From Gammaproteobacteria bacterium (GTDB lineage: Bacteria; Pseudomonadota; Gammaproteobacteria; JAJPIJ01): a DNA stretch of 47,032 nucleotides. The notes below the pieces were generated by a model that was not told the DNA's origin, did not search any database, and saw only the letters and a list, made by a program, of their open reading frames with translations. A program made the translations under genes and the position numbers. Location: the NCBI GenBank assembly GCA_021324815.1, contig JAJPIJ010000039.1:1-47032 (forward strand). Reading direction: 5' to 3'. Below, piece by piece: positions 16,213-47,032 of this stretch. Every line of letters begins with the position of its first letter. The stretch's first letter is position 1.

Positions 16213-16920
16213 CTAAAACTGGATGCCGAGGGGTTGGTAGCCGAAGATGGCATTCAAATGATGCAGGAACGCGTGTCCACCCTCGTTCTGCCAGGTCTCG
16301 GTGACGCGCTGGTCCACGCGCTCGTATTCCTGCAACAACTCCGGGATGCTGCGCCCCGAATCAGGACCGGGCGCATAGCGGTCAACGAGTGAAAGCCAGG
16401 TCTGGCTTGCGCCCATCGCGAAGTACGGCCAGCTTTCATTGAGGTCATGACTCCAGGCGGGATCGCCGGTCGCCCCGATGTCCGTCTTGAGCGGGCCGTG
16501 CACGTCGTCCACCACCAACTCCTTCAACACGCCCGCCCGCTCCAGCTCCGCCACCAGCGGCTGTGCCCGCAGGTCGCGGAAGACAGCGGCGGCCACCGGT
16601 GCCGGCGCATAAAACAAAAACCGGAAGCGATGCCCGGTCTCGTCACGTGCCGCGCGCCGGTGGATGCGCCACAAGGCGATTGCGGCATGAAAGCGGTTCA
16701 ACTCGGGCTCGACAAACCGGTGGGCAAGCAGGGTGTCGATGTACAGCCGCGGCGGCGTGTCCTGCGGCCAGTTCACGGTGAAATATGCGGTCCACCAGCC
16801 CGGCGTCTGGCCCCCCGCTGCTGCCGTCATGCCCTCCTCCGGCACCGCGGGCCTGACGCCCCGGCTGCAACCGGCTGCCAGCAGGCAGAATACGAACAGC
16901 AGACATGGCGCATGACGCAT
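16213..16920 (-). CDS. Predicted lipoprotein of unknown function
   Basis: A 235 aa protein with a type II signal peptide: hydrophobic CLLFVFCLLAAGC, lipobox LAAGC and acylated Cys18. The mature part is soluble, with a Trp-rich start (PGWWTAYFTVNWPQDTPP), an HRFRFLFYAP strand and a GIQF C-terminus. I do not recognise a named family. It begins six bases after the moaE stop, so moaD-moaE-lipoprotein is probably one transcript. The link to Moco may be incidental. Confidence 0.75.
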   Translation of the reverse strand: MRHAPCLLFVFCLLAAGCSRGVRPAVPEEGMTAAAGGQTPGWWTAYFTVNWPQDTPPRLYIDTLLAHRFVEPELNRFHAAIALWRIHRRAARDETGHRFRFLFYAPAPVAAAVFRDLRAQPLVAELERAGVLKELVVDDVHGPLKTDIGATGDPAWSHDLNESWPYFAMGASQTWLSLVDRYAPGPDSGRSIPELLQEYERVDQRVTETWQNEGGHAFLHHLNAIFGYQPLGIQF

Positions 16921-34328: not shown

Positions 34329-34476
34329 TTCCCTTTCCCGTTGGCAATCCACGGGCCCGCGGGTGCGGCCCGTGGCGCGATTATAAACGGCTTGGTGAAC
34401 CTGCCAATGGACGAAAAAACATCCTTCTCGTCTCCAAGGTGAAATTTACTGTCTGCCGGCTGCGATCAATCGCGGA

Positions 34477-34521
34477 AAATCCCCCCGCGCTTGTGCGCCG
34501 CCCCCTTTGACAAAGGAGGGC
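34477..34521. repeat. Palindromic repeat, family B, outlying copy
   Basis: Runs AAATCCCCCC, GCGCTTGTGCGCC, then the hairpin GCCCCCTTT/GACAAAGGAGGGC. It has the same order of parts as the 44 bp units around the DUF559 gene 11-12 kb away, but with GAC in the loop. It lies in the gap between the pip and FecR-like genes (34353-34557), where no gene is seen. Confidence 0.65.
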
Positions 34522-45090: not shown

Positions 45091-45147
45091 CAGGCTGATA
45101 AATAATATCTTTATTTTACAAGCTAAAGTTGTTTCGCAAATGGTATG

Positions 45148-45191
45148 AAATCTCCCGGCACCGACGCGCCGCCCCCTTTATCAAAGGGGGC
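45148..45191. repeat. Palindromic repeat, family B, 44 bp unit (left flank of DUF559 gene)
   Basis: Starts AAATCTCCCGGC, passes GACGCGCC and ends in the perfect hairpin GCCCCCTTT (45171-45179) with AAAGGGGGC (45183-45191). It is in the same orientation as the units at 46029 and 46228. Confidence 0.75.
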
Positions 45192-45282
45192 AAAAAATCC
45201 ATTCACGGCACCACGGTAGTTCCTGTACACCTTCTCCTTCAAGAGATGGGGAGCCGATACTTGCCTCGGTGGCTTCTCTCAA

Positions 45283-45304
45283 CCCCCTTTGTCAAAGGAG
45301 GGGC
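45283..45304. repeat. Palindromic repeat, family B, hairpin-only copy
   Basis: CCCCCTTTGTCAAAGGAGGG: one mismatch from a perfect hairpin. It overlaps the 3' end of the DUF559 frame and supplies its last codons. Confidence 0.6.
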
Positions 45305-45957
45305 GCGCGCGTCATCGCTCGGTATCGCCCAAACACCTGCAAAGATATCTCGTGGAGGCCGACTTCAAGCATTGACCTTCCCGAAGACACTGACTTCATT
45401 GCGCTTATGCTCCACCGTTTGCTGGCACCAGATGCGGATTTACCCGGACACCAGGACGTTGAAAAAAGGTCGCGCGCAGCGCGGCAGTCGGCTGAGTGTT
45501 TTACCCCCTTTGACAAAGGGGGTCGCGCGCAGCGCGGCAATCGGCTGAGCGTTTTACCCCCTTTGACAAAGGGGGTCGCGCGCAGCGCGGGGGATTTTCG
45601 CAGGTGTGTCTCGACTGCGGCAAAAATCACGGCCAGTACCGCATCCATTTCCTGTAACACCTGTCGATTATTAAATCGAAGTACACGTAATCCCTGCTGT
45701 TCAAGATAGTTTGTCCTCTCTGCGTCTAGTTCTTGCATCTGCGAATCGAGATGCTGGGCACCGTCAACTTCGACAACAAGTTTTGCCATCGGCGCGTAAA
45801 AATCCACCACAAACCGGCCAATAGGCTTCTGTCGATAGAACTGTATGCCCAGAATTTGTTTGCGCCGCACCCTCGACCACAAAACTTGTTCACAATCCGT
45901 TGGTTTGCTGCGCAGGTTCCGCGCGGTGAATTTCAGCCGTCTGTTGTATTTCAGCAT
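45292..45957 (-). CDS. DUF559 (PD-(D/E)xK, Vsr-like) endonuclease-like protein with repeat-coded tail
   Basis: From ATG 45957 the first ~118 residues are a full DUF559 domain: LRSKPTDCEQVLWSRVRRKQ, GIQFYRQKPIGRFVVDFYAP, the nuclease core Asp in VVDFYAP and ExD in VVEVDGAQH, and GLRVLRFNNRQVL. The remaining ~100 residues are low-quality sequence coded by family B repeats (ATPFVKGGKTLSRLPRCARP), so the native stop has probably been lost. DUF559 proteins are related to very-short-patch-repair endonucleases; activity is unproven. It lies in a 0.9 kb segment between direct 44 bp repeats, with repeats also inside its tail. Confidence 0.82.
   Translation of the reverse strand: MLKYNRRLKFTARNLRSKPTDCEQVLWSRVRRKQILGIQFYRQKPIGRFVVDFYAPMAKLVVEVDGAQHLDSQMQELDAERTNYLEQQGLRVLRFNNRQVLQEMDAVLAVIFAAVETHLRKSPALRATPFVKGGKTLSRLPRCARPPLSKGVKHSADCRAARDLFSTSWCPGKSASGASKRWSISAMKSVSSGRSMLEVGLHEISLQVFGRYRAMTRAPLL
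45471..45590. repeat. Two and a fraction tandem 53 bp repeats, family B
   Basis: Units begin CGCGCGCAGCGCGGC at 45471 and 45524 and contain CGGCTGAG, GTTTTA and the hairpin CCCCCTTTGACAAAGGGGG (ends near 45522 and 45575); a third unit starts at 45577 and stops after GCGCGG. The two full units differ at only two positions, suggesting recent duplication. They encode part of the DUF559 tail on the minus strand. Confidence 0.8.
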
Positions 45958-46028
45958 GATCAAAATCTGGCGTGACTTGAAATCGCTCGGTACCTAAACG
46001 CCCCCCCTTTTTATTTCCAAGGATGGCA

Positions 46029-46072
46029 AAATCCCCCGGCGCTGACGCGCCGCCCCCTTTATCAAAGGGGGC
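46029..46072. repeat. Palindromic repeat, family B, 44 bp unit (right flank of DUF559 gene)
   Basis: AAATCCCCCGGC, GCTGACGCGCC and the perfect hairpin GCCCCCTTT/AAAGGGGGC with loop ATC. It differs from the unit at 45148 at three positions and is the same length and orientation, so the DUF559 region is bounded by direct repeats. Confidence 0.75.
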
Positions 46073-46150
46073 AAGTAAAAACTCGCGGCACTTTACACTC
46101 CCCCTTTGGAAATGGCGGCGCCTTAGATGAAGCCCCGTTCCCTCTTCCAG

Positions 46151-46187
46151 CTTCCCCCTTTGGAAAAGGGGGATTGAGGGGGATTTG
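46151..46187. repeat. Palindromic repeat, family B, inverted variant
   Basis: Contains CCCCCTTTGGAAAAGGGGG followed by ATTGAGGGGGATTTG. Read on the minus strand it is AAATCCCCCTCAAT then the hairpin, so it is a family member in the opposite orientation with a TTCC-type loop. A degenerate partner, CCCCCTTTGGAAATGG, lies at about 46100-46115. Confidence 0.65.
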
Positions 46188-46227
46188 CCGCTTGCTGTAG
46201 ATCAGGCCCCCGCGCGGGATCACAGTC

Positions 46228-46271
46228 AAATCCCCCGGCGCCGACACGCCGCCCCCTTTATCAAAGGGGGC
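46228..46271. repeat. Palindromic repeat, family B, third 44 bp unit
   Basis: AAATCCCCCGGCG, CCGACACGCC and GCCCCCTTT/AAAGGGGGC with loop ATC. It ends 44 bp from the 3' end of the beta-propeller gene. Apart from repeats, no gene is seen between 45964 and 46314. Confidence 0.75.
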
Positions 46272-46314
46272 GAACTTCAACGCAACGGTGTATTGAAATG
46301 ATAGGCGATGTTCT

Positions 46315-47032
46315 TCAGTCGAGGACGATGACACCCCAGGGGCCCTTGCCCACCTCGACGTTGGTGATGACCTCGCCCTTGGCGGTGTCGATCACGGACA
46401 CGGTGTTGTTGACGCCGTTGGTGGTGTACAGCCGGCTGCCGTCGCGGTTCAGCGCCAGTCCCCACACCCGCGGCCCCACCGGGATTTCACCCTTGACCTG
46501 CAATGTCTCCGCGTCCAGCACGAAGACCTTGTTGGCGCGGCCGCCGGCCACGTACAGCAGTTTCTGATCGCGGCTCAGCAGCACGTCCTTGGGCTTGGCC
46601 TCCTTTTCGCCGGTATTGCCGGTCTTGTCCACCTTGAGCGTGCTCATGTCCACGCGCTTGATCTCGCCGCCGACCTCGGTGGAGGCGTAGGCGTATTTGC
46701 CGTCGGCGGAGAAAGTGACCGAGCGCGGCCGCGCGCCCACGAGAATATTGGCCAGGATTTTGTGCTCCGGCACGGCGATGACGTGCAGCATGTTGGTCGA
46801 TTCACTGGTCACGATCACCCGGCTGCCGTCGGGCGAGACCGCGACGCCCTCCGGCTCCAGCCCCACCGGCACCAGCGCCTTGCGCCTGCCGGTCCTCGGA
46901 TCATAAACGGCGGCCTTGCTGTCGTTCTCCATGGAGATGTACATGTTGCCGTTCGGATGGATGGCGAACGCCTCCGGATCGGGCCCGGAACTGAACTTGC
47001 GAACGACCTTCATTTTTTTGGCGTCGATGACC
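46315..47032 (-). CDS. YVTN-type beta-propeller protein, PQQ-associated (5' end outside window)
   Basis: The 3' 239 codons of a beta-propeller protein; the frame is open to the right edge (reading VIDAKK before the first ATG at 47013), so the N-terminus is missing. Repeats of about 42 residues are seen: SSGPDPEAFAIHPNGNMYIS, VGLEPEGVAVSPDGSRVIVT, ILVGARPRSVTFSADGKYAY, VGPRVWGLALNRDGSRLYTT and VGKGPWGVIVLD. The order of motifs, such as GPDPE, EPEGVAVSPDG and RVWGLAL.TNGVNN, matches PQQ-dependent catabolism-associated propellers (recalled family TIGR03866). It is probably periplasmic; its partner dehydrogenase may lie to the right. Confidence 0.85.
   Translation of the reverse strand, partial: VIDAKKMKVVRKFSSGPDPEAFAIHPNGNMYISMENDSKAAVYDPRTGRRKALVPVGLEPEGVAVSPDGSRVIVTSESTNMLHVIAVPEHKILANILVGARPRSVTFSADGKYAYASTEVGGEIKRVDMSTLKVDKTGNTGEKEAKPKDVLLSRDQKLLYVAGGRANKVFVLDAETLQVKGEIPVGPRVWGLALNRDGSRLYTTNGVNNTVSVIDTAKGEVITNVEVGKGPWGVIVLD

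Follow-up and report, generated by a model that had tools for sequence, protein, structure and literature searches.

DUF559 nuclease genes set between inverted triplex-type palindromes: a candidate minimal selfish element of bacteria

Contig JAJPIJ010000039.1 of a Gammaproteobacteria bacterium (GenBank assembly GCA_021324815.1) carries a gene for a DUF559 nuclease lying amid a dense cluster of palindromic repeats, raising the question of whether the nuclease and the palindromes belong together and, if so, what kind of entity they form. We analyzed the whole stretch of 47,032 nucleotides, hereafter the window. An initial sequence-only reading of this DNA had likened the layout to that of RAYT proteins and the REP palindromes they spread. 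Our analysis leads us to place a probability of about 70% on the locus representing a minimal selfish element, namely a lone DUF559 nuclease gene with triplex-motif ends, which resembles the REP/RAYT systems and has a homing-type nuclease as its partner.

The locus and its empty counterpart

The features of the locus, by position in the window and with the strand where one applies, are the following:

34476-34519: solo copy of the motif without a gene
45140-46314: whole block, 1,175 bp, missing in the same-genus genome G299, where the orthologous site has 26 bp
45148-45193: extra solo end motif, tail leftward
45282-45301: imperfect hairpin copy
45292-45963, minus strand: free-standing DUF559 (Vsr/EDxHD-type) nuclease ORF, 223 aa
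45468-45590: 3' end hairpin and spacer in a 53-bp tandem duplication (2.3 copies, 97%, score 232)
about 45556-46072: minimal element, the DUF559 gene between inverted compound ends
45556-45576: hairpin at the gene 3' end (ACCCCCTTTGACAAAGGGGGT)
45577-45588: GC spacer, itself a small hairpin, separating hairpin from tail, 3' side
45589-45598: mirror tail GGGGGATTTT, gene-facing, 3' side
45613-45939, minus strand: DUF559 domain proper, residues 9-117 (profile match, E 1.7e-34 to 4e-34)
46028-46037: mirror tail AAAATCCCCC (on the minus strand GGGGGATTTT), gene-facing, 5' side
46038-46051: GC spacer hairpin, 5' side
46052-46072: hairpin at the gene 5' end (GCCCCCTTTATCAAAGGGGGC)
46099-46118: decayed hairpin copy
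46153-46272: gene-less inverted pair, REPIN-like, with inward tails (members 46153-46186 and 46228-46272)

The sequence-only reading had described a Vsr-like nuclease gene surrounded by three near-identical units in one orientation, with tandem 53 bp repeats in its tail, an inverted variant to its right and a related gene-less copy about 11 kb away, and each of these features was recovered. The direct units are 46 nt each and 91-93% identical, one lying to the left of the gene (45148-45193) and two to the right (46029-46074 and 46228-46273), while the inverted variant at 46153-46186 reads TCCCCCTTTGGAAAAGGGGGATTGAGGGGGATTT. The gene product matches DUF559 with E = 4e-34 and combines a Vsr/I-Bth0305I fold with an intact active site. 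That reading placed the repeats correctly but drew the unit too small, as the natural unit extends to the block at 45140-46314, with the minimal element at its core. The 53-bp array is the strongest tandem repeat of the window and falls within the C-terminal part of the ORF, which past about residue 118 is largely a translation of the (duplicated) palindromic repeat region. Many other DUF559 proteins (L018-L034) end in a PPxPPFSKGG-like sequence; since this is the translated palindrome, the predicted C-termini of these proteins are repeat-derived.

The host genome (2.37 Mb) contains 27 distinct CCCCCTTTNNNAAAGGRGG palindromes and none of the reversed control pattern, and therefore those of the window are not a product of chance; seven of the 27 fall in a stretch of about 1.1 kb surrounding the sole DUF559 gene of the genome. 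The same genome also has 34 CCCTCTCCC-type hairpins, none of them in the window, even though the ends of its single DUF559 gene are of the CCCCCTTT type. A search of the window against Rfam gave zero matches, and searches with PADLOC and PHROGs gave weak partial matches at most, so that a role in defence or a phage origin was set aside.

In G299, which has neither DUF559 matches nor CCCCCTTT palindromes, the two genes flanking the block are kept in synteny, at 81% and 88% identity, and lie only 26 bp apart, versus 1,175 bp in the window. These 26 bp (CCCTCTTTAACAAGGAGCCAAAAGCG) resemble a palindrome that has decayed, with 13 matches (shuffle p = 0.007). Both insertion at a palindrome and decay following a loss could account for this likeness, so that the change may have run in either direction, and the empty site might in principle have arisen by deletion. 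A complete element with outward tails was also seen within the paa operon of Deinococcus psychrotolerans (L156), in the paaD-paaZ interval; in most other elements the tails do not point outward. A related Deinococcus lacks the DUF559 gene at the paa site, where the intergenic DNA is not alignable for exact borders, and a comparison of Azospirillum plasmids recovered no element-free strain among the matches listed.

Identity to the DUF559 protein of the window is 52-61% for its CCCCCTTT-type relatives and 31-48% for nearly all other aligned members. As most of these CCCCCTTT-type relatives are found in other phyla, the protein identities suggest horizontal spread.

Association of DUF559 genes with hairpins across bacteria

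We collected a first set of 21 relatives on protein sequence only, with sources including Myxococcota, Desulfobacterota, NC10 and Nitrospirota among others. In 20 of the 21 a CCCCTT..AAGGGG palindrome occurs at most 250 bp from the gene, the palindromes mostly lying about 30-50 bp away and on both sides; the sole exception, from Caulobacteraceae, has CCCTCTCCC and CCTTCTCCC hairpins in an unchanged layout. Within the phylum of the window DUF559 was detected in 108 of 299 genomes, and a main set, again chosen by protein alone, comprised 135 DUF559 domains at 132 loci, these being the higher-scoring matches, such that the weakest members are under-sampled. A pyrimidine-first hairpin of at least 8 bp was found within 300 bp of 126 of the 135 domains, and on both sides of 84. 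The 290 hairpins within this distance amount to 3.6/kb versus 0.109/kb past 1 kb, a 33-fold difference. Control hairpins of the opposite, purine-first type were absent near all 135 domains, and hairpins were likewise absent near DUF559-like domains within large proteins (0/9) and near Y1-transposase matches in palindrome-rich genomes (0/28). Terminal inverted repeats exceeded the 99th percentile of controls in 103 of 135. The statistical link that the sequence-only reading had named as its own test thus exists in other genomes, and it is close to certain that the DUF559 gene and its triplex-motif ends form one unit.

Beyond the main set, further class-level relatives displayed the two-sided pattern in six of nine cases, and it was also encountered, with variations, in cyanobacterial records, Deinococcus plasmid records (with the tails pointing outward) and Neisseria gonorrhoeae; a divergent DUF559 protein of Thermoactinomyces is without such hairpins. 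At the level of genomes, the CCCTCTCCC hairpin is present in 57 of the 80 with a strong DUF559 match and in 32 of the remaining 219 (odds ratio 14.5, Fisher p = 3e-20, kinship ignored), a count that is conservative because stem types besides CCCTCTCCC were left out. Copies average 32 in the former and about two in the latter, while the reversed pattern gave a single match in each of two of the 299 genomes. Four genomes have 32-107 CCCTCTCCC hairpins without a strong DUF559 match, two of them complete (G054 and G199) and two incomplete assemblies (G140 and G161).

Stem similarity also rises with protein identity across genomes (r = 0.38, with free permutations reaching at most about 0.1), and several stem types can occur in one genome beside different DUF559 copies; permuting stems within genomes did not significantly weaken this protein-stem covariation (p about 0.07-0.08).

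The likeness to RAYT and REP sequences proposed at the outset holds in layout, i.e. a gene amid inverted palindromes together with dispersed gene-less inverted pairs of fixed length. The clearest instance is G167, where such a pair is dispersed at about 40 sites, with exactly 145 bp between anchors in 27 of 29 measured units and independent flanks in 27; G143 and G028 have a common spacing of 168 bp at one locus each. Gene-less units that are dispersed yet of fixed length are a signature of copying in trans. No Y1/RAYT transposase was detected in three palindrome-rich genomes, that of the window (G000), G062 and G167. A comparison of the best inverted-repeat borders, which are themselves uncertain, and of the 27 independent G167 insertions yielded no convincing target-site duplications and no sharp insertion rule. 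That the unit is, or formerly was, mobile is well supported.

These observations also bear on the most serious of the rival explanations, under which the palindromes are MITE-like sequences moved by another transposase or by replication slippage, with DUF559 as a frequent passenger. We consider this unlikely. The hairpin-rich genomes without a strong DUF559 match would be at home under it, as would the failure to find a target-site rule or catalytic transfer activity for DUF559 and a Legionella study in which recombination hotspots have DUF559 adjoining a transposase (PMC12308824), but it sits poorly with DUF559 being, in several phyla, the only gene inside the unit (and, for most of the first set, lying 30-50 bp away from the ends), with Y1 transposases being undetected in several palindrome-rich genomes and without flanking hairpins, and with target-site duplications not being seen at the borders as tentatively drawn.

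Architecture of the end motif and its E. coli counterpart

A full end consists of a pyrimidine arm, a loop, a purine arm, a short spacer at the foot of the stem (TT, TTA, CCG, TCA or a GC hairpin) and a G-rich tail, and the two ends of an element are inverted with the tails facing the gene. Examination of the tails revealed that they mirror the purine arm rather than copying it directly, with A or T opposite A. For the 195 hairpins whose arms are asymmetric, the mirror alignment was better than the direct one in 122 versus 9, with 64 ties, and among the 58 informative distinct arms it was ahead in 55 versus 3 (p = 2e-13). When tails were aligned on the G/non-G pattern only, a tail G stood opposite an arm G in 1056 of 1076 positions, while the bases opposite an arm A were A (178), T (152), C (15) and G (8). 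A mirror score of at least 8 was reached by 160 of 211 hairpins (76%) versus 3.5% of composition-shuffled tails.

In a class II purine triplex the third strand mirrors the purine arm with G:G, A:A or A:T matches, and the tail rule, as read from these base patterns, is the code of such a purine-motif triplex. By its sequence architecture the end motif is accordingly classified as an intrastrand triplex motif of the class II purine type (PIT/BoxC/TM), and the membership of the repeats in this known class is the most important point that the sequence-only reading overlooked. Intrastrand triplex motifs, formerly termed PIT or BoxC, have been reported to fold as triplexes in vitro, for TM_ECO only, and to mark unstable, rearrangement-prone loci; their origin has been called unclear, with no associated mobile gene known, and PIT elements reportedly act as neither promoters nor terminators (PMC4666352, Holder et al. 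2015). The elements described here share the architecture of the published motifs (PIT/BoxC/TM_ECO; PMC4666352 and earlier work), including the occurrence of inverted pairs, and differ in that the motif forms the end of a DUF559 element; that of the window is of a CCCCCTTT variant, in which a GC hairpin serves as spacer.

In E. coli K-12 MG1655 the DUF559 gene is ycjD (NC_000913.3, 1351407-1351760), and a TM copy lies about 170-190 bp past its stop codon. Table 1 of PMC4666352 gives it as copy no. 9 of 23, with no other copy in the interval 0.62-3.05 Mb; five inverted TM pairs are present in MG1655. We searched complete E. coli genomes, 60 of which were sampled at even steps, with a combined ycjD and TM query. 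The median number of places matched was 17 in the 37 ycjD-positive genomes versus 8 in the 23 ycjD-negative ones (p = 7e-10, kinship ignored), where the ycjD place itself adds one and the difference follows phylogroup to some degree.

In MG1655 (L149), part of the 3' end of ycjD is duplicated within the spacer that separates the gene from TM copy 9, where it adjoins a decayed palindrome, an arrangement resembling the 53-bp tandem duplication of the window. In the ycjD-negative E. coli CU532-9, CFSAN061763 and F7386 (L162-L164), genes for a TetR regulator and RND efflux components adjoin fabI, and in K-12 ycjD occupies this fabI-adjacent spot.

The nuclease and a proposed cycle

The predicted structure of the protein (pLDDT 92) matches 3hrl (Z 16.1), the homing endonuclease I-Bth0305I (3r3p; Z 11.5) and Vsr (Z 9.8), and I-Bth0305I also gives a profile match (E 2e-4). 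In 101 sequences E25, D54, D67 and D80 are invariant and H71 is at least 90% conserved, such that a Vsr-like fold is found together with an EDxHD-type active site. By alignment position, E25/D54/D67/H71/D80 map to the active site of Caulobacter VsrA, itself a DUF559 protein. VsrA is needed for the SOS response in cells without the methyltransferase ScmA and has been interpreted as a VSP repair enzyme, in a paper from which palindromes are absent (PMC12907096). From this Caulobacter report, a DUF559 protein is capable of damaging DNA in vivo; action on palindromes is a separate matter.

One might hence read DUF559 as a Vsr-type mismatch repair nuclease, with palindromes that are regulatory or insulating, or that accumulate through being tolerated or repaired by the enzyme, and with no mobility involved. 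The Vsr fold and the interpretation given to VsrA (PMC12907096) speak for such a role, but we regard it as improbable given that the end motifs are also dispersed as fixed-length gene-less units, that the syntenic site without the DUF559 gene is also without palindromes, and that PIT elements are reportedly devoid of promoter or terminator activity (PMC4666352). An indirect link, whereby small nuclease genes and palindromes both gather in recombination-prone intergenic sites, would agree with TM loci being reported as rearrangement-prone (PMC4666352) but is very improbable in light of the matched inverted ends around the gene (103/135), the tracking of protein relatedness by stem type and the Y1 transposase genes of palindrome-rich genomes (0/28).

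Returning to the selfish-element reading, its most economical version has the nuclease itself driving the mobility of the unit. Most likely, the DUF559 nuclease would recognize its own end motif, either as a folded or extruded hairpin/triplex, with the folded triplex as the presumptive substrate, or as sequence. It would then nick or break DNA at the end motif or at palindrome-like target sites, and host repair, probably of a recombination type, would complete the transfer by copying the element, or a gene-less inverted end pair, into the break. Such a cycle would be homing-like in its chemistry and REP/RAYT-like in its outcome.

With the REPtrons and REPINs of REP/RAYT (TnpA_REP) the unit shares a low-copy gene amid inverted palindromes and dispersed gene-less pairs of fixed length; however, its enzyme is a PD-(D/E)xK/Vsr-type nuclease and not a Y1 HUH transposase, and the GTAG/CGTC tag at the stem foot is absent from its ends, which have a mirror tail instead. 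With the EDxHD homing endonuclease I-Bth0305I it shares the fold of the catalytic domain and the selfish context of a lone nuclease gene, whereas its ends are triplex-motif palindromes with high-copy gene-less derivatives; no intron, intein or self-splicing host was seen around DUF559, the gene being free-standing amid hairpins at intergenic sites. Vsr and Caulobacter VsrA have the common fold and equivalent active-site residues, but have been studied as repair enzymes. The unit works like a REPtron with a homing-nuclease-like enzyme and is, by the tests applied, a member of neither group. We lean towards viewing it as a separate class of minimal mobile elements present in several phyla, in which a homing-type nuclease and triplex-folding ends take the place of the HUH transposase and the REP hairpin, and of which the PIT/BoxC/TM sequences of E. 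coli, Neisseria and cyanobacteria would be non-autonomous offspring.

In the open-access literature, with preprints and subscription literature lying outside the scope of the search, we found no report of a link between DUF559 and triplex motifs. Our results suggest that a long-known family of bacterial repeats is the mark left by a minimal selfish element: the BoxC/PIT/triplex motifs, known for decades without an agreed origin, gain a candidate source in one small nuclease, and the mobility of a repeat family becomes directly testable in E. coli K-12 through removal of ycjD. If true, a triplex-forming DNA sequence of bacteria would have an identified protein partner, and an unrelated enzyme family would join the short list of those thought to spread REP-like palindromes.

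Two minor observations concern the window and its relatives. Its last 107 bp (46926-47032) are 100% identical to positions 16222-16328 of another contig (C42) of the same assembly, likely representing a contig-end overlap or a repeat. An outer inverted repeat, GCATAAGCGCTAACTTAA / TTAAGTTAGCGCTTATGC, is seen in five elements (L020, L023, L027, L030 and L034) and is possibly an extra end module or a nested insertion; a trace of it (TGCGCTTATGC) is present in the window at 45408-45418.
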